DNA of 64,000 nt from Tetramitus jugosus (taxonomy: Eukaryota > Heterolobosea > Eutetramitea > Acrasida > Vahlkampfiidae): positions 186,001 to 250,000 of the forward strand of contig OW569379.1 in assembly GCA_937625935.1 (NCBI GenBank), written 5' to 3'. Of this stretch, positions 5,916-16,301 are shown piece after piece. The translations under genes and the position numbers were made by a program. The notes beneath the pieces are model-generated. The model was not told the origin of the DNA, made no database searches, and saw only the letters and a program-made list of their open reading frames with translations. Position 1 is the stretch's first letter. Each line of letters opens with the position of its first letter.

Positions 5916-7847
5916 ATGCAGAGCTCCTCTTTAGAATTAGAGCATGCTATTGGTTTCACAGGAAGGAACACCCACACCCTACTATTTCATCCCCAGAACA
6001 AGAACTTTATGATTTATCCTATTGGTGCTGTTCTGGTTATAGGTGATATGGCCGATCCACATAACCAATCTTTTCTCAAGGCTCACGATGAAGAGATCAC
6101 ATTCCTTTGTGTTTCTCCATCAGGTAGGTTCGCAGCCACTGCGCAACTGGCTACCTCGAAACGAAAGGGCAAGATAGCAACAGTGGTTGTGTGGAACTTA
6201 AAGTCCAAAAAGGCCGACTTCGAACTGGAAGGTCATGTCAACATAGTTTATTCGCTTTGTTTTACTCACGATGATCGATTCTTGCTGACTACGGGAGAGT
6301 CAGGATTGTGCGTATGGGATATGGAGAATGGAAAGTTATCTGGAGGATTACGGTTCGAGAAACCAGTTCAGTTTGTGAAGAGTGCTCCTCCGAGCTCAGA
6401 CTTTAACCCGAGACGTCCTGAGTACACACTTGTTGCCGCCACAGAAAATCAAGCAAGGGTGTGCAAATGGAAATTTGATATTAAGACAATGCAATTTACC
6501 TTGACTAGCGAAATTTGTGCTCTCCCAGGGAGAATTGCTGGATTTAATAGAACATATCTGGAAGGTGCCATTGACGAACGTGGAGATTTCTGTTTTGCAG
6601 GAACAAAAACAGGAGAGATCATTGTATTCAGTATCAAGAATGCCATTTTCCGAACATTGGAACAAGTATCATCAAATGGAGTACAGGCAATATGTCCGCA
6701 TGGATCTGATCTCTTTGTTGGGTCTGGGGATGGAACTATCAAAAAGCTAAGAGGGAGCGACACGAAGTGGGATTTAGTGCAAGAAACTCGGGTACCAGGA
6801 GCAGTTACTTCCCTCTCACTCTCAAACGATTGTACACTCCTGTTAGCAGGAACTGATAATGGAGCGATCTATCTTGTCAATGTAAACGACTTTAGAGCAT
6901 CATTGCTCGAGGAGAGCCACACCAGAGCCGTAGTCGCAGCGTGTTTCGATGGAGAGAACTCGGAATATTTCTGTAGTGCATCAGAAGATGGTACAATGCG
7001 CGTCTGGGACCTGTCAGATTACTCAACGAAAACGAATTTATCCTTTTGTGGAAGAGTTTCATGTTGCATCTTCTTAGGAACTCATATCGTTTCGGGATGG
7101 GAAGACGGTTTCGTCAGGTGCCACAATGTAAAAACGAAACAACTTAAGTGGGAGATAAGTGCTCACCGAGGAAAGGTGACCACCGTAGATTGCAATGAGA
7201 AATACGTTTGTTCCGGTGGATCAGATGGAGCCATTAGAGTCTGGAGCACTACTACCCAAGAAATGTTGGGACAATTTTCAGATCATCACAAGGCTGTATC
7301 GCAAGTCCTCATTGACCTAGACTCACCACATCTTCTCCACTCTTGTAGCATGGACAAAACTGTACTAACCATAGACCTGAAAACGAACAGAAGAATTGCA
7401 TTCCATGCTCTGCCGGTATGTTGGTTAGCTTTTGAATTTTGTGCTTTTAATATATTACAAGTAACCAACAAGCTTGTTTAGGGAAGTTCATCATTAGGTT
7501 TCGCAGGCATGTCTCAAAGATACGACAGCGAAAATGAGCTCGTTACTTGCGGACTCGATGGTAAAATAATGTTCTGGGATATTGACTATCCAGATCCCGT
7601 GCAAGTTTTGAACGATCCTGACAAGGCACAGCTATTGTGCATTGCAGTATCACCTAGTGGAAAGTATTTAGCCGTGGGTTGTGACGACGAAATAGTTAAG
7701 ATTTGGAATCTAAAAGCAGGTACTATAATTGCTCAAGGTTCCTGTCACTCCTCGTCTGTATTATCTGTGGCTTGGAGTCCCGATGAAAAGCAGATAATAT
7801 CAACGAGCAAGGACTGTTCAATAGCTATTTGGAACTTCTATCCATGA
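5916..7847 (+). CDS. CFAP52: CFAP52 / WDR16, axonemal WD40 protein (2 exons)
   Basis: Microtubule inner protein of the ciliary doublet made of two WD40 beta-propellers. Exon 1 is 5916-7415 and exon 2 is 7482-7847. The 66-bp intron has donor GTATGT and acceptor TTTAG, both in phase 0, and restores a continuous frame through GSSSLGFAGMSQRYDSE. The spliced product is 621 aa, matching the usual ~620 aa for this family. Many WD repeats end in VWNL, VWDM, VWDL, VWST, FWDID, IWNL and IWNFY. The N-terminus GFTGRNTHTLLFHP is characteristic. The gene would be used when the amoeba converts to the flagellate. Divergent from the QT-motif gene. Confidence 0.93.
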
Positions 7848-7884: not shown

Positions 7885-10800
7885 CTACGTATCATCATCA
7901 TCACAAGAGATTTTACGCACAAATAGCTCCTGAGGATAATAGCGCATATCAACAGTAAGTTCAACCTTAATGACCGAAAATGGTTTCAATTCAACAGAAA
8001 CATCCTCATTTCTTCCAAATCCAAGGGCGTCACACCCTAGTTCCTCGTCGCTACTCGTATCAGCAAAATAGTTAAGTTTTGTTGTTCGTTCATGTTCATC
8101 GAGCTCAATAGAGCTTGGGCATGGTTGCAATCGAGTAAGGTGACACTTGACCTCAATACCATATCGAGGAAGGAACAGCGCCAATTCCATCATAGGAGAC
8201 ACAACCCCATCAATCACTACTGCGTTCACTGTTCTGTGCTCCAACTTTGAGTGATGCAGCAAAAATGAACTAAGATTATGGTAGTATGCCTGTTGCTCTA
8301 TTCTGAGTGTCTCAGGCAGCCATTGATTCAACTCATCCAACTTGCTATCGATGTCTCCTCGCTCAACCGTCCACTCTTTCTCAGGACCATTTAGACAAAA
8401 GGACTCGAGTAATTTATGCGCATATAGATGAGGGAATGATAAAGATGGATTGGTGAACTCGAATTGCAATGATTGAGCAACGTTTGAGAACCTCCACTGC
8501 ATTTGAGATGAGAAACCTTGATTAGCCCGGTACTCTGCGCATTGTTTTCGAGGCCCATCTTCCAATGAACCTATTTGGGATAACAGTCGATGGTGGATAG
8601 GCAGATTGGGATACACGCAGGACAAATGCTTCAGTTGCGAAGATATCAACTCTAGTTGCTCGTTGTTGGAATTGAAGTTTGCACCAGAACCGAAGTATTT
8701 CTTCTTGGAAAACCCATCTAAGCAACCAAGCAGAACTCGGCTCGTAGCCAGTTCGTACATGCGAACCATTTCTTGAGCATCTCTGCAATTCTCAATATCT
8801 AGTGGAATGCCAGTGAAGGAGCTGAAAACAAAGCGGAACTGGCTCAAAGGTTGAGTCAATGAAATATAAGAGCGGACAACTTGGCGCATCGTATGGATCA
8901 TTCCTTCGAAATGAGCATGTTCGGCACATGATTGTCCATTTAAAATCTTTTGTAATTGGCCCATTCGGAGACTACATGATGATCTAATGTAAGTGAAAAA
9001 CACTTGACTATTAGACACATTCAACGTATTCTTGTCAATTTGCCATGAGACACAAATCGCATTTCTCTCCTGTCCAGTTTCAAAGTTGCACAGTGAAGCT
9101 AACTTTGGATCCACAATCGATAGCACAGAATGACCAAGATTCACTGCAAAAAGCCTGTTGGGATCGATATTGCTGCAATACGAATAAATATCAGGCAAAT
9201 AAACATAGATATGAATACTTTCTGCGCGATCCTCAGCAGAAAATGCAATGGTGCTACTATCACTGCTGCAAATAGAGAAAATAGGCCTGTGTGTGCTGTT
9301 AATAGACTTAGGTCTCCTCTGCTCAGTGTACTGCTCTCGTGACATCTTTGCACTCTGTGTGATCGATTTATCTGAGGACATGTACTGGGATTCATTGAAT
9401 ACCATGAACCGATTTGCAGTTAGTGGATCTAATGCACAACCCAACACCTCTAAGGAATGGATTTGTGGATATCGTTCATTGTCTTTCCAAGAATCCATCT
9501 GGCAAGCAAAAACAAATCCATTATACTTCAATGCCTGCTTGTGCTTACAGTTGATGGTCTTTGCAAAAAATAGAGTTGTGGTGATCATCTTTGGAAATCG
9601 GGAATCAATTGGTTTCATCCACACATAATCAGGATGCACCTCAGCAACACATGCAAACACCTTTGGAGAATTCTTTTTCAGAATCGTTACGATTTGTCCA
9701 TGAGTGGCAGTATTCTTTTTGATGAAGACATAATCAGTGTGCAACGCTCGGTTCAATGCTCCAATCGTACTAATGGCTATCACATCACCAGTTGTATCCA
9801 ACTTGACAAAGGCTCTCACAGGATCCAGACTCTCAATACTCAGCACGCCAGCAGCAAAGTTTTTGTTATTTTTTAACTTTTCAAGCACTTGTGGCGAGGG
9901 ATATCTCCTAAATGTCCCACTCTTATCCAACTGCTTTGCTGCAAAGGCAAACTGTCTTGCAATACTAGCTTCAATCACATCTTGCATAATACCACCTGAA
10001 GATAGTATGTTGGCTGCCTCGGATATTTCACCGATTATATTTTCTGCTTTCCTTCGAGAAGCGATGACACAACCTAAATCCCTCTGATACTCAAACGGAT
10101 CAATGATTGAAATTAGAATATCTTTGGACCATGTTTTCTTCTCAATAGGAGTTCCACTTTTCAAGCAGATTGTATGTTTGTTAAAGTCAAACTGCTTGTA
10201 AAAGGAGAAAAATCCGATCACGAGATCGGTTCCTGTTGAGTTGTTACGAACCATCTCACTATTCATAATTCTTTTCACAGTCGCAACATTTGAAACATAT
10301 CTGCAATCATTACCCAGAACTAACTCTTGATTTGCAATATCCGAGCCAACAACATATGGGTGATCGAGCAATTTATGCAAGGATGGAAGTCTACCAATAT
10401 TCTGAAAGTAAAATATAACCATCAATACATAGGAGTAGGAACTGAGGGTTCCATACGCCGATTCGTTGATCCCTACGTTCTTTGCCCAATACTTGATCAT
10501 ATGCACAACCTCTTTCAACATCTTATCCAATTTTGAGAAAGTGAGCAGAAATTGCGTATTGACAACAGCAAAATAATTATTGACACAAATGTCGCACTCC
10601 ACATTGAAGTGATGAATCTTCAGGATTGGAAGTCTTTGACCAATCACCTTTGCACCATGAATCCCATCGGACAACAACTTCTTTTTCAATTTGGACAGTA
10701 CAGTAGATGCGTCACCAACTTGGGATGACTCATCAAAGTTCAAAGCCAAATCAATATCACTGCCTCTCATACTAAAACCATTCGCAGATGATCCATATGG

Positions 10801-12693
10801 ACTAATCTTGTGATAGATGCCAGAAAACACTTGACCACATGCCTTTTCAATCGTTTTAATAAAGTTTTGATTATGGTACTTCTCCTGTTTGGTCGGTAAA
10901 ATATCCTTCATCAAATTCTCAAGCTCGTACTTTAAGCAGTATTGACTCGTATTCAAAAATCTAGCATAGGAGGTCTGTGATCGAGTAATGAGTGAAATCT
11001 TCTGGGGACTGCTAATCGTGGGCAGTTTACATGTTTGCTCAATCTGCGACTTTAGTCTCTCGCACTCTTGCAGTATCACATAGGTCAACTCGGGATTCGA
11101 CATTACATTCATGAACAAAAGAAAATTAAAGATTGTAAACTCCTCGTATAACACACTATGGTTCGCCTCTCCAATCTTGTTTGATAACATGTGAATCGAT
11201 GATTCACTGTCGCTCACTTCCATCTCCGCTTCTCCTCCATATAAAATCTGCGATAAATCATAAGCCATTTTTTCGTGTTGATCTGGATGATATGAAAACG
11301 CAAAGGACAATATCGTTCTTCTGTGTTTTGAAATATTGATCATTACACTCTTCCATGTGCTCGTATCTCGACTACTCTTCTTTGTCTTTTTTCTCTTCTT
11401 CTTCTTAATGTCAATTGGATCACCAGCAGTTACTGGCTCACAACTCGTATTTGATACAATGGAGCTACAATCATCCACAATTGAACTTGTCTCTTCGGAA
11501 CAAATTACACCTTCACTAATGTAATGATCAATGACACTGTCGTCACCAGTTTGCATCATATTCAAGAGAAGAGGTACACCCGTACCATCGACACGCTCCT
11601 GATTCTCCACATGCACTTGCGAATGATGATAATGTTGAACCACAATCTCTCCTTCCTCTCCTCTTTCTTGAAGCTGTAGTAGCTGTTGTTGTAGAGACTG
11701 TAATGGTTGTTGGATTGTCTCCTTGTCACACAACGCATCAATCGATGACAATGTGGGTTGCGCATGACTCTTATTAGTCTTTCTTCTCTTCTTCTTCTTG
11801 GTTTGTGCCTTCTTGACAATCTTTGTGTGCTTAATCTTGTGAAAGATTGGATTCTTCTCCAATGGAGCAAAACAAATCTCTTTTGAGTCGACCAATGATT
11901 GTGCCACACTTGCATCTTCAAATCGAATCACAACAGATGCCTTTGTGCTGTCTTCCATGTACAGATTGGCTTTGATCACACGACCAAAGTTTTTCATGAA
12001 ATATTTTTGAAGAAATTTTCGATTGTACTTTGCTGCATTCACATGCAGAATACAAATCTCGTTCAATCGAACATCGCCATAATTGTCACCTGCATTCGAT
12101 GATTGACAACTCTTTGTGTCATCTTCATCTTCATCGTCACTATCATCAAGTTGGTCCACTTCTTGCTCATGTGCTTCATTGTCATGCATGTGCATTTCAT
12201 GTGCTTCTTCTTCAGAAGATGCTTGTGGTTTTTCATGAATCATGGTATTTTGATCATGATTCTCACCATTATGAGTCTGAGTATTATTATTGTTATTATT
12301 AATGTGATGAATATTGTGTATATTTGAATCATCGTGATTTTTGGATGATGAGGCAGATTCATGCGTATTCGAATCAATTTCAATTGATTTTGAAGCAGAG
12401 TGATTCTTTTTCTTGGCTCCTCTTCTTCTTCTTTTTTGTTTGTGCTGTTGAGATTGTTGATTTTCCTCCATTTCGACTTCTCCTCCGTTCTTTGCTTGGA
12501 CGTGTTGTTGTTGATCTTGATGATGATGGTCGTCATGATTATTGGTAGTAGTGGTCGATGGATGATCACAGATACCATTGTTCACCATCACAGCATGATG
12601 ATGCTTGTGATGAGAAATCACCGAATGACTGTTTTGCGCAGTGTAATTCGGTGTGATACTATAGTCACCTTGTCCCTCATTTCCAATAATCAT
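7885..12693 (-). CDS. Cid1/TUTase-type nucleotidyltransferase fused to a catalytically degenerate DIS3L2-like module
   Basis: A single 1602-aa intronless frame. Residues 1-200 are low complexity, with poly-H/N and K/R-rich stretches. About 210-285 looks RRM-like. A pol-beta nucleotidyltransferase core follows: GSSANGFSMRGSDIDLAL with Asp646 and Asp648, the third carboxylate in ECDICV (Asp701), LSSYSYVLMV, and a PAP-associated IIDPFEYQRDLG near 865. From about 905 the order matches DIS3L2/RNase II: cold-shock-like GVLSIESLDPVRAFVK with LNRALHTDYV, a second OB-like region near 1020-1090, an RNB-like region from about 1137 (RPIFSICSS, IYVYLPDIYSY, LASLCNFETGQERN, FFTYIRSS, TNPSLSFPHLYAHKLL) and an S1-like tail to 1600. 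In active RNB enzymes the first block reads IDP then DxDD; here it is SICSS with no aspartate cluster, and RRYAD has become LSFPH. Tailing activity looks intact and exonuclease activity lost. UTP versus ATP choice cannot be told. Confidence 0.88.
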   Translation of the reverse strand: MIIGNEGQGDYSITPNYTAQNSHSVISHHKHHHAVMVNNGICDHPSTTTTNNHDDHHHQDQQQHVQAKNGGEVEMEENQQSQQHKQKRRRRGAKKKNHSASKSIEIDSNTHESASSSKNHDDSNIHNIHHINNNNNNTQTHNGENHDQNTMIHEKPQASSEEEAHEMHMHDNEAHEQEVDQLDDSDDEDEDDTKSCQSSNAGDNYGDVRLNEICILHVNAAKYNRKFLQKYFMKNFGRVIKANLYMEDSTKASVVIRFEDASVAQSLVDSKEICFAPLEKNPIFHKIKHTKIVKKAQTKKKKRRKTNKSHAQPTLSSIDALCDKETIQQPLQSLQQQLLQLQERGEEGEIVVQHYHHSQVHVENQERVDGTGVPLLLNMMQTGDDSVIDHYISEGVICSEETSSIVDDCSSIVSNTSCEPVTAGDPIDIKKKKRKKTKKSSRDTSTWKSVMINISKHRRTILSFAFSYHPDQHEKMAYDLSQILYGGEAEMEVSDSESSIHMLSNKIGEANHSVLYEEFTIFNFLLFMNVMSNPELTYVILQECERLKSQIEQTCKLPTISSPQKISLITRSQTSYARFLNTSQYCLKYELENLMKDILPTKQEKYHNQNFIKTIEKACGQVFSGIYHKISPYGSSANGFSMRGSDIDLALNFDESSQVGDASTVLSKLKKKLLSDGIHGAKVIGQRLPILKIHHFNVECDICVNNYFAVVNTQFLLTFSKLDKMLKEVVHMIKYWAKNVGINESAYGTLSSYSYVLMVIFYFQNIGRLPSLHKLLDHPYVVGSDIANQELVLGNDCRYVSNVATVKRIMNSEMVRNNSTGTDLVIGFFSFYKQFDFNKHTICLKSGTPIEKKTWSKDILISIIDPFEYQRDLGCVIASRRKAENIIGEISEAANILSSGGIMQDVIEASIARQFAFAAKQLDKSGTFRRYPSPQVLEKLKNNKNFAAGVLSIESLDPVRAFVKLDTTGDVIAISTIGALNRALHTDYVFIKKNTATHGQIVTILKKNSPKVFACVAEVHPDYVWMKPIDSRFPKMITTTLFFAKTINCKHKQALKYNGFVFACQMDSWKDNERYPQIHSLEVLGCALDPLTANRFMVFNESQYMSSDKSITQSAKMSREQYTEQRRPKSINSTHRPIFSICSSDSSTIAFSAEDRAESIHIYVYLPDIYSYCSNIDPNRLFAVNLGHSVLSIVDPKLASLCNFETGQERNAICVSWQIDKNTLNVSNSQVFFTYIRSSCSLRMGQLQKILNGQSCAEHAHFEGMIHTMRQVVRSYISLTQPLSQFRFVFSSFTGIPLDIENCRDAQEMVRMYELATSRVLLGCLDGFSKKKYFGSGANFNSNNEQLELISSQLKHLSCVYPNLPIHHRLLSQIGSLEDGPRKQCAEYRANQGFSSQMQWRFSNVAQSLQFEFTNPSLSFPHLYAHKLLESFCLNGPEKEWTVERGDIDSKLDELNQWLPETLRIEQQAYYHNLSSFLLHHSKLEHRTVNAVVIDGVVSPMMELALFLPRYGIEVKCHLTRLQPCPSSIELDEHERTTKLNYFADTSSDEELGCDALGFGRNEDVSVELKPFSVIKVELTVDMRYYPQELFVRKISCDDDDT

Positions 12694-13850: not shown

Positions 13851-16301
13851 CTATCGAATGTCCATGGTCAGTGGTGATGATCTCGTTCTGTTCCGAGTAG
13901 GTGGAAAAATGTTCCATAGCTGCAATGTCTCATCTCCTGCTCCAGTGACAATATTTTGTCCATCTGGTGAAGCAGCCAAGTAGAGCACTCTTGTTGAGTG
14001 ACCAGTCAGTGTTGCAATAGGAGTCATTGTTGGATACTTCCACACGTAGATTTGATTGAGAGAGAAACCGTGTGTTGATACAATCTCATTCACGTTCTCA
14101 CTCCACATCAAGTTGCACACTTGCGATCCAGTATTTACAAAGGAGAGTGGAGTTTGAGACACGGTGTTCCAGAACCGTATGCACTTGTCATTGGTTCCTC
14201 CACCACTCACAAGCAAACCATGCTGATGAGGTGACCACGCAATCGCTTTGACTGCAGCCATGTGCTGAGTGAATTGAATCACAGGAGCTGAGCTGGAGTG
14301 TGTTGGCTGCCATACATTGAGCAAATTGTCGTTGCCTCCACTTGCTAGTTCCTTTCCATCTGGGGACCACTTGAGACCGCACACCTCTTGTGTGTGGGAC
14401 AGCAGTTTGGCAATGTGTGAATCATTGGCTCGGACATCATGGTGGATAATGTGCTTGTCTCTGCTACCACTACTCAGTGTGGCAGTGCCGTTCCAGCTAA
14501 TGCATGCAACGCGTTGTGAGTGACCAGTGAGACTTCGAATCTTCGTTGCAGTGTTCACGTCCCAGATGTGCACTAGGCCCCGGTCATCACCAACTGCAAG
14601 CTGATTACCAGTTCCTATCCATGAGACGGATGTGATGGAGTCACCACCATTTAGATTGTTGGTGTCGTTGCAGAGCTTGGTGACTGCACCAGTGGACGCA
14701 TTCCACAAGTATACGATATTTTGCAGTCCGACAGCGACCATGTTCGTTGTTCCCCAGTCCACAAGGTTCAGGTAATAGTCATCAGATAGGCCAGGTGCAT
14801 CCAATATCTTGTATGGCTTTGTGGCAATCTTGCGTTGTGGTTGAGGCCGAGGGAACAAGGTATTCGACCTTAGAGAAATCATGGGACTAGCATGTATCGC
14901 ATCACTAAAAGTATGTCTGTGCGAGGAACCATTGGGAGAGGATTCATAACGAAAAATTCCGCTCTTTTCTGACTGCGTGGGCAACAATTCTCGTCTCAAT
15001 AACTCTTCATACAAATTTGAGTCTCCTCCGATTCCAACAGTAAACGATTCATGATCTTCATCAGTTTCTTGATCTTCTCTTGTTTCTTCATCACCTTCTG
15101 ATTCGCTACCTTCATCATAACCATCTTCATCTTCTTCTGCCTCACGACCGAACTGTTCCTCATGATTACCATCTTCACTCACAGAGAAAGAGTGATTGGT
15201 AGTAGATAGAGATGCATTCCCATCCTCTGGTGGGCCTTCTCTGTTGGGGAGAAAAATGGGCGACATGTACTCGTTCATGAAAATGGAACTGTTTGAGGAG
15301 GATGAGAAGGATATCGAGGAGTTGGATGAGGAAGAGGAGGAGGAGGAGGATGAAGATAGCATGGATGTGGAGAGAGAAGTAGAATAACGACTAATGTCAG
15401 CTGTTCTATCATTATTCACAGATGACACATCGGGCAGAGTGGATTCAGAGACATCATCGTACGAACGGCTTGCATCTCTATATTGATTGTACTGTCTAAA
15501 TCTCCTGATTCTTCGACTGCGAGGTCTTGACGTCCGTCGAATTCCATTCCTAATCCATGAGGTATCAAAGCTCATTGACGATGAGGATGGATATGTAATC
15601 ATGGGAGAGATTCGTTTTCCGGTTTGGTGAAGAGAGTTGTACGATTGGAGGAATACGCTGTTGGTTGATCTCTTGGAGGGCATTGGAGAATGGAAACCAT
15701 GTTCCAAGTCGGATGACTCGCGATTGGGTATGTATCTACAGGATATCTCGGAAGAGCTTGAGCGTGCGTGCTTCTTTGATGATGATGGTGGAGTTTTTGG
15801 AGGTCTCAAATGCGATGACGGATGAACCAGGAGAGAGGAGGGAGAAGTGGAAGTAGTGCCATGGCTACTGTTGTTGCTGTTGTCAACATTTGAGGTGCCA
15901 CCAATACTCGTTGTTGTTGTTGCTGTTGTTGAAAAATCTGATAGTGATGACTTTGTGGGCAGTAATCGCTGGGAGGAGAGATCAAAGTGAGACTGCTGCT
16001 CTCCTCCTCCTCCTCCACTACTACTACTACTACTACCATCACCATTATTACTTGAACCTACATTGAAATGCAGATGATGATTTTGTTCCTTGTGAGTGAG
16101 ATGATCCAATGATTGGAACTCCAAGTGGGGAGAATGTAGAAACATGTTGAACAAATTGTCTGAAGAGATGTCATTGTTTTGTATCGTGTGTTGTGATTGT
16201 TGTTGTGGTTGTTGCTTGTTTCGGTTTTGAGGTGATCGCTTATAGAGCCTCAGTGGAGATTTGGGAGACTTTCGTAGTTTTTCAGCATATTGTGAGTCCA
16301 T
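13851..16301 (-). CDS. FZR1: CDH1/Fizzy-related APC/C activator
   Basis: WD40 co-activator and substrate receptor of the anaphase-promoting complex. The 816-aa protein is longer than usual (~500 aa) because of N-terminal serine, glycine and acidic low-complexity tracts. The C-box appears as CRYIPNR near residue 185. The KSPKSPLR-type N-terminus suggests CDK control sites. The C-terminal propeller starts near 490 with KILDAPGLSDDYYLNLVDW, the signature of CDC20/CDH1 proteins. It runs through seven blades and ends in TLQLWNIF. The final two residues are Ile-Arg, the conserved IR tail that docks onto APC3. LSDDYYLN with the long extension favours CDH1/FZR1 over CDC20, but the paralogue call is an inference. 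A weak E2F-like TTGGCGC lies about 100 bp upstream. Confidence 0.92.
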   Translation of the reverse strand: MDSQYAEKLRKSPKSPLRLYKRSPQNRNKQQPQQQSQHTIQNNDISSDNLFNMFLHSPHLEFQSLDHLTHKEQNHHLHFNVGSSNNGDGSSSSSSGGGGGEQQSHFDLSSQRLLPTKSSLSDFSTTATTTTSIGGTSNVDNSNNSSHGTTSTSPSSLLVHPSSHLRPPKTPPSSSKKHARSSSSEISCRYIPNRESSDLEHGFHSPMPSKRSTNSVFLQSYNSLHQTGKRISPMITYPSSSSMSFDTSWIRNGIRRTSRPRSRRIRRFRQYNQYRDASRSYDDVSESTLPDVSSVNNDRTADISRYSTSLSTSMLSSSSSSSSSSSNSSISFSSSSNSSIFMNEYMSPIFLPNREGPPEDGNASLSTTNHSFSVSEDGNHEEQFGREAEEDEDGYDEGSESEGDEETREDQETDEDHESFTVGIGGDSNLYEELLRRELLPTQSEKSGIFRYESSPNGSSHRHTFSDAIHASPMISLRSNTLFPRPQPQRKIATKPYKILDAPGLSDDYYLNLVDWGTTNMVAVGLQNIVYLWNASTGAVTKLCNDTNNLNGGDSITSVSWIGTGNQLAVGDDRGLVHIWDVNTATKIRSLTGHSQRVACISWNGTATLSSGSRDKHIIHHDVRANDSHIAKLLSHTQEVCGLKWSPDGKELASGGNDNLLNVWQPTHSSSAPVIQFTQHMAAVKAIAWSPHQHGLLVSGGGTNDKCIRFWNTVSQTPLSFVNTGSQVCNLMWSENVNEIVSTHGFSLNQIYVWKYPTMTPIATLTGHSTRVLYLAASPDGQNIVTGAGDETLQLWNIFPPTRNRTRSSPLTMDIR

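Follow-up and report, generated by a model that had tools for sequence, protein, structure and literature searches.

A predicted RNA-tailing enzyme joined in-frame to a DIS3L2-derived region with a lost nuclease site in Tetramitus jugosus

The 64,000-nucleotide stretch of Tetramitus jugosus DNA analysed here (the window) encodes a protein whose domains and motifs support its reading as a nucleotidyltransferase (NTase)-type tailing enzyme joined in-frame to a DIS3L2-derived region that has lost its nuclease site. Comparison with its relatives showed that this protein is an old duplicate of a predicted tail-and-degrade fusion, in which the tailing triad was kept and the nuclease site was lost. 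By parsimony, fusion would have come first, followed by duplication and then by loss of the nuclease in one copy, because the relatives keep the active site. Tailing by TUT enzymes and degradation by DIS3L2 are otherwise known from separate proteins, the coupling of which is a matter of deduction; in a natural fusion it becomes physical.

Layout of the window gene

The gene is one frame of 1602 amino acids running from ATG to TAG on the minus strand, with zero internal stops and no intron or frameshift required to read it (Table 1). The longest stop-free run found in the six frames of 30 Markov-simulated 64-kb windows was 265 codons. A sequence-only reading of this DNA had proposed the uninterrupted 1602-codon frame, without its strand, and had placed Asp646, Asp648 and Asp701, as well as SICSS and LSFPH, at the positions where we find them. 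Its domain order (NTase, cold-shock, RNB-like, S1-like) also stands, except that two cold-shock domains (CSDs) are present instead of one, and it had missed a predicted RRM-like fold near residues 205–290.

Table 1. Features of the window gene, with positions in the window
Feature	Position	Strand	Basis or remark
Whole gene	7885..12693	-	1602 codons + stop; P0066 and P0067 align along full length
RRM-like domain (predicted), ~residues 205–290, beta-alpha-beta-beta-alpha-beta	11824..12081	-	AlphaFold2, Foldseek, identity
N-terminal region, putative helical, residues 451–584	10942..11343	-	57%/36% identity to P0066/P0067
Terminal nucleotidyltransferase, NTase palm + PAP-associated, residues 585–885	10039..10941	-	triad Asp646/Asp648/Asp701; Arg871
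CSD1, residues 925–1003, NRALHxD retained	9685..9921	-	model, profiles; 73%/68% identity to P0066/P0067
CSD2 (Pfam OB_Dis3), residues 1004–1092	9418..9684	-	E 1.2e-7; 77.5%/72% to P0066/P0067
Dead RNB-like domain, residues 1135–1470	8284..9291	-	PF00773 43.3 bits, profiles + shuffles, model
Lost catalytic Asp cluster: SICSSDSST (1140–1148) replaces DPxxSRDLDD	9250..9276	-	alignment
Lost RRYAD: LSFPH (1418–1422) in its place	8428..8442	-	alignment
S1-like beta-barrel + C-terminus, residues 1471–1602	7888..8283	-	model + profiles

The RRM-like region was modelled by AlphaFold2 from an alignment of 3 rows only, with a pLDDT of 72 overall and of 84–90 in the core blocks. In Foldseek it matched RRMs, with a single match at E < 0.001 (5.2e-4), and its identity is 71% to P0066 and 52% to P0067, the two closest homologues described below. 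No alignable counterpart of this region was found by sequence in the four live fusions compared (7–15% identity). The putative helical region that follows shares 18% identity over 89 columns with the live fusions, so that its homology to them is insecure.

In the NTase half, Pfam placed MTPAP-like_central at residues 588–720 (E 1.2e-21) and PAP_assoc (PF03828) at residues 823–868 (E 6.9e-8), bearing out the PAP-associated domain proposed earlier. The top solved-structure match to the window protein was TUT4 (E 2.1e-34), with weaker matches to DIS3L1 (E 1.1e-4) and DIS3L2 (E 0.01). NCBIfam gave no family for the protein (P0001).

The second half was traced by profiles and by structure prediction. 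Pfam reported OB_Dis3 (CSD2) at residues 1023–1085. The RNB family PF00773 was not reported in the protein by hmmscan at E≤1; a six-frame genome search detected it at window positions 8881–9294 (43.3 bits against a cut-off of 29.3), covering positions 5–152 of the 326 in the profile. Profiles built from non-fusion relatives scored 23.0 bits for the RNB, 46.5 for the CSDs and 9.5 for the S1, and those from live fusions scored 20.8, 74.8 and 14.8 bits, respectively; the dead rows were excluded from these profiles but present during alignment. The best of 200 shuffles reached 5.2 bits across all six profiles, and the best S1 shuffles reached 4.3 bits (live-fusion profile) and 3.9 bits (non-fusion profile). 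In the window protein the non-fusion RNB profile matched residues 1190–1279 only, against 948–1285 in P0067. The non-fusion S1 profile gave P0067 just 5.1 bits and left P0066 unlisted; the S1 call therefore rests mainly on the model and the live-fusion profile.

The AlphaFold2 model of residues 915–1602 has a pLDDT of 73 and a pTM of 0.62, with middling confidence in the RNB body; its S1-like blocks lie mostly at pLDDT 76–89 and a loop and the end at 48–58. The top Foldseek match to this model was mouse Dis3L2 with oligoU (E 2.1e-30), and Ssd1 was also matched, in agreement with the earlier assignment of the C-terminal region as CSD-RNB-S1; since the model alignment included live relatives, the predicted fold is partly borrowed from them. 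Overall, the window protein is predicted to share the CSD1-CSD2-RNB-S1 fold of DIS3L2 (4pmw, 8e29), the S1 being the weakest part by sequence.

The catalytic residues, on the other hand, are gone from this predicted fold. DPxxxxDLDD is given as the active-nuclease signature of DIS3L2 in excerpts of PMC8097288, and both it and RRYAD are absent from the window protein. The replacement of the IDP and DxDD aspartates and of RRYAD, as read earlier from the sequence, was borne out: SICSSDSST and LSFPH stand in their places, and no intact Asp cluster was aligned. An alternative active site within the RNB was considered and rejected, as the aligned segment holds scattered shared acidic residues and no substitute cluster.

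Live fusions and the ancestry of both halves

A search with the window protein returned the homologues P0066 (1673 aa) and P0067 (1412 aa), matching at 65% and 48%, respectively, over residues 570–1602. In Pfam, no RNB match at E≤0.01 was obtained for either of them, and all three dead proteins (window, P0066 and P0067) lack the Asp cluster of the active site as well as the RR of RRYAD. Dead homologues thus number at least two, in a search that returned neither the live fusions nor a paralogue on contig C38 of the same genome (G000 contig C38, L008:2765-5840). This paralogue, C38, has a 61-bp GT-AG intron and an intact NTase triad; its C-terminal half holds a weak CSD2-like stretch (5.6 bits, and 9.4 bits for the whole-region profile), and RNB and S1 were undetected there in the profile tests.

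The window's genome (26.3 Mb, 56 contigs) also encodes a live sister, P0002, found as a 1887-codon stop-to-stop frame (G000 contig C8:160605-166265; L007:3106-8766). It has NTase, PAP_assoc, CSD2 and RNB domains (RNB E 1.3e-84) and the active-site motifs DPPSSRDLDDA and SPIRRYAD; in NCBIfam it met RNase R/II models, every score lying under the cut-off. It is arguably more striking than the window protein.

A protein search with P0002 gave 12 database fusions, including P0003, a near-identical copy of P0002 itself, and a profile search added P0069 from Naegleria fowleri and P0070 from N. lovaniensis. With P0002/P0003 counted once, at least 14 distinct live fusions were found (P0002, P0004–P0014, P0069 and P0070), 13 of them besides P0002, and DLDD and SPIRRYAD are retained in every one. 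The named organisms are all Heterolobosea (Percolomonas cosmopolitus, Willaertia magna and Naegleria). The sequence-only reading had stated that no such natural fusion was known to it and had suggested a search of other Heterolobosea. The fusion does not stand alone, as live TUT-DIS3L2 fusions occur in the same genome and in other Heterolobosea; the suggested search recovered the same domain order in Percolomonas, Willaertia and Naegleria, with the nuclease site intact there.

In the profile search 8000 candidates were scored and the best 120 of 587 passing were examined. Among the matches listed, the fusions scored at least 1273 bits and the next match, an echinoid TUT7, scored 311 bits; no further row with both NTase and RNB domains stood among the best 120 of 587. 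Because P0009, P0014 and P0067, which had been found earlier, are absent from these 120, fusions elsewhere may be missed too. Restriction to Heterolobosea is not implied, and members may exist elsewhere. We know of no published name for this family. No TUT-DIS3L2 fusion was described in the open-access titles and abstracts among the matches listed, a scope outside which most subscription papers and preprints fall; a Naegleria pangenome paper concerns, in its excerpts, a sugar enzyme (PMC9928731).

Some single live fusions deserve mention. P0014 and P0070 are both labelled Naegleria lovaniensis and are both of the live type, and therefore duplication seems to have occurred there too. P0009 (2494 aa) is extended at its C-terminus by hydrophobic stretches and a RING-type PF13920 match; this extension may be a gene-model join. 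The header of P0012 (eukaryote protein set) carries an MMETSP label, that of a transcriptome project.

Trees were built for both halves (47 rows for CSD-RNB-S1 and 45 rows for the NTase). In the CSD-RNB-S1 tree, live and dead fusions were grouped at 100/100, and this group adjoins DIS3L2 (80/90, branch not starred), apart from DIS3/DIS3L1. The grouping of live with dead was retained at 100/98 when the RNB columns, which change quickly in the dead copies, were removed. Two SSD1 rows grouped with fungal DIS3L2 (100/100), away from the fusions. In the NTase tree, a branch supported at 94/87 (not starred) sets the 18 members (14 live, 3 dead and C38) apart, with a long-branched Saprolegnia row joining just outside them. 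The dead three were recovered at 100/99 and the dead three with C38 at 96/91; the Percolomonas pair, the dead clade with C38 and the remaining 12 live rows branch in no firm order. The window protein thus shares the ancestry of the fusion family in both of its halves, which lie within a single frame (NTase branch 94/87), and lacks a live nuclease half. The earlier proposal of a reader tethered to a writer with decay lost was right about the nuclease site; the fusion is no one-off, being a duplicate within a live family. It should be noted that a stand-alone CSD-RNB protein on contig C9 (G000 C9:312176-313237, L012) also fell beside DIS3L2 at 80/90 and was placed elsewhere (59/54) without the RNB columns, so its proximity to DIS3L2 is weakly supported.

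Domain conservation and the nucleotide pocket

The domains of the dead proteins are not equally conserved. Identities of the window protein to P0066/P0067 are 78/62% in the NTase, 73/68% in CSD1 and 77.5/72% in CSD2, compared with 53–59/28–33% in the RNB parts and 57/56% in the S1-like part. Region 1–204 stands at 25/37% and the linkers 291–450 and 1093–1134 at 26–39/29–38%; the linker joining NTase and CSD, at 74/54%, is likewise well conserved against P0066. As a live control we used the 66 pairs of 12 live fusions, P0069 and P0070 lying outside the alignment. The RNB/NTase identity ratio is 0.48–0.72 in the three dead pairs versus 0.94–1.21 in the live pairs, with no overlap, whereas the CSD/NTase ratio is 0.96–1.13 versus 0.90–1.24. 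The dead side of this contrast comprises three sequences (window, P0066 and P0067).

By these ratios, RNB and NTase are conserved in step in the live fusions and the dead RNB falls behind, while the constraint on the CSDs is unchanged and not raised. Since the RNB/NTase ratio fell and the CSD/NTase ratio stayed the same, the dead clade has relaxed the RNB and kept the CSD constraint. The CSDs are not more strongly conserved here than in the live fusions, which points to a kept constraint, not to a new role. The pair P0002/P0004 had suggested the RNB as the best-conserved live domain; this was rejected, as the RNB is the lowest in P0002/P0006 (46%) and, among NTase, CSD and RNB, the highest in just 25 and the lowest in 9 of the 66 pairs.

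The sequence-only reading had named the DIS3L2-like half as a reader of tails. Conservation favours the CSDs for this part and speaks against the RNB body (28–33% to P0067). Given the kept CSD constraint and the published Ssd1 parallel, the reader, if one exists, is likely formed by the CSDs rather than by the RNB body; the kept constraint does not specify which RNA is bound.

The triad (GS...DxD and the third Asp) is retained in all 18 family members, whereas the pocket residue differs from that of known uridylyltransferases. Excerpts of PMC7498324 assign UTP selection in Cid1 to His336 and its equivalent in CutA to Arg557, and describe CutA as preferring cytosine and polymerising A processively. 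Arg871 of the window protein aligns with the His of TUT4/7 and URT1 at the Cid1 His336 place, and the residue is Arg in 18/18 family members. Among non-members, the same column holds His in Lytechinus TUT7, both URT1 and Knufia Cid1, among others, and Arg also in the Lepeophtheirus, Perkinsus and Saprolegnia rows; in some it is Tyr or unaligned. Cid1, TUT4, TUT7, URT1 and CutA thus resemble the window protein in NTase, PAP-associated domain and triad, but the former four have the UTP-selecting His where the window protein, like CutA (Arg557), has Arg.

The earlier naming of a TUTase that writes U tails therefore holds for an NTase-type tailing enzyme and is not borne out for U specificity: because Arg replaces the UTP-selecting His in 18/18 members, the TUTase label and the U-tail link are unproven, and the window protein lacks this mark of a terminal uridylyl transferase. 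The pocket Arg speaks against U specificity of the simple Cid1 kind and is compatible with tails of C, of A or of mixed composition; given the Arg/Tyr variation in other rows, nucleotide preference is unreadable from one Arg. Moreover, the IED motif, which lies close to the base, has Ile or Val in place of its Glu in 4/4 dead and C38 rows, and this Glu is kept in 13/14 live rows (Gln in one); its loss could impair tailing.

Among the closest known systems are the live fusions themselves, which have the domain order of the window protein and its Arg at the Cid1 His336 place, but keep the DLDD and RRYAD (14/14) that it lacks. Like the window protein, Ssd1 and the fungal Dis3L2 pseudonucleases are DIS3L2-derived, with the RNB site lost and CSDs conserved above the RNB (Ballou et al., PMC8097288, in excerpts); Ssd1, however, has no tailing domain. 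Hallmarks of the Ssd1 type also include insertions that block the funnel and a likely RNA site on the outer CSD face. As Ssd1 lies on a separate tree branch, the loss of the window nuclease is independent of that in Ssd1, and descent from the fungal Ssd1 branch was not found. DIS3L2 itself is an active nuclease separate from TUTs, and degrades 3'-uridylated RNA made by them (PMC10023572 and PMC6053540, in part), whereas the window protein is fused and has lost the site. A comparable pairing is described, in excerpts of PMC6329795, for the mitochondrial processome of trypanosomes, where the TUTase RET1 and the RNase II-type DSS1 act together in one complex; unlike the fusion, these are separate subunits, mitochondrial, with DSS1 instead of DIS3L2.

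Proposed function, rival explanations and neighbouring loci

On balance we lean, if only slightly, towards an enzyme that tails RNA 3' ends without a template, originated as a duplicate of an older fusion, lost its nuclease and works with a CSD-based clamp; tailing with such a clamp is the mechanism that we infer from the sequences. An older covalent fusion of a tailing enzyme with a DIS3L2-type 3'-5' exonuclease would have been duplicated, and one duplicate would have lost the nuclease active site while its CSDs and barrel fold were retained. The CSD pair, with the S1 and the N-terminal RRM-like domain, would hold RNA 3' ends and feed them to the NTase, or select them for it. Tails would then be added with no trimming by the same molecule, making the window protein a write-only counterpart of the write-and-erase fusion P0002. 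A broader scenario, which we offer tentatively and would not yet lean on, is an ancestral tail-and-shred enzyme of Heterolobosea, one duplicate of which became write-only with a clamp and a CutA-like (C/A/U) pocket, so that write-erase and write-only enzymes compete for the same 3' ends.

The DIS3L2-derived half might instead be a decaying relic on an ordinary tailing enzyme, merely aiding solubility. The RNB at 28–33% against 62% for the NTase (to P0067), an RNB/NTase ratio far below all 66 live pairs and the state of C38, where only a weak CSD2-like stretch was detectable and no RNB or S1, fit this explanation, and against P0067 the RNB about equals the linkers (28–33% against 29–38%). To P0066, however, it reaches 53–59%, above linkers 291–450 and 1093–1134 (26–39%), the CSD/NTase ratios equal those of live fusions, and the frame of 1602 codons (1673 in P0066) is maintained to its end; we consider a relic unlikely. 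Slightly less likely still is a decoy or tail protector, whose CSDs bind tailed RNA and shield it from the live fusion and stand-alone RNB proteins, tailing being secondary. Such a role would suit a genome that also encodes a live counterpart with the same domain order, and Ssd1 offers a dead DIS3L2 relative whose RNA site is likely on its CSDs (PMC8934651, in excerpts), but a pure decoy would have no need of the NTase, the triad of which is kept and which is as conserved as the CSDs.

Two further explanations carry very little weight. That the RNB still cuts RNA through other residues seems highly improbable to us: the Asp cluster is gone in 3/3 dead proteins, as is the RR of RRYAD, and nothing like DPxxxRDLDD substitutes, even though the predicted fold is retained and the three dead rows have isolated acidic residues in common (among them the Asp that belongs to IADV in the live proteins, and a Glu lying between the two). 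An artefact, in which misassembly or a faulty gene model had merged two genes, would be conceivable for a gene known from genomic sequence alone, and we rate its probability as equally minimal, since the single frame, the same order in two homologues and 14 live fusions, one of them (P0012) MMETSP-labelled, are grounds to reject the two-gene reading.

Whichever function applies to the write-only candidate, an active/inactive pair in one genome provides a built-in control, and comparing both proteins could show whether a 3' tail marks the RNA for decay or for protection, or aids processivity. Outside the fungi, the window protein further represents a separate instance in which DIS3L2 became a pseudonuclease and retained its cold-shock domains.

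Trypanosomes, in which the RET1-DSS1 complex is found, also belong to Discoba. On contig C42 of the window's genome (G000, L016; C42:377333-377716), an 898-codon frame has a partly degenerate RNB (ILDDAI, SSPLRRFSD), and its product is perhaps mitochondrial DSS1-like. Around the window gene, two WD40-like frames (5916–7481 and 7509–7847, plus strand; Pfam on the first only) run convergently towards it and end 37 bases from its stop (7885, minus strand); the genome is compact. On its other side, 13851–16301 (minus strand) encodes a CDC20/Fizzy-type WD40 protein (PF24807, E 5.1e-123).
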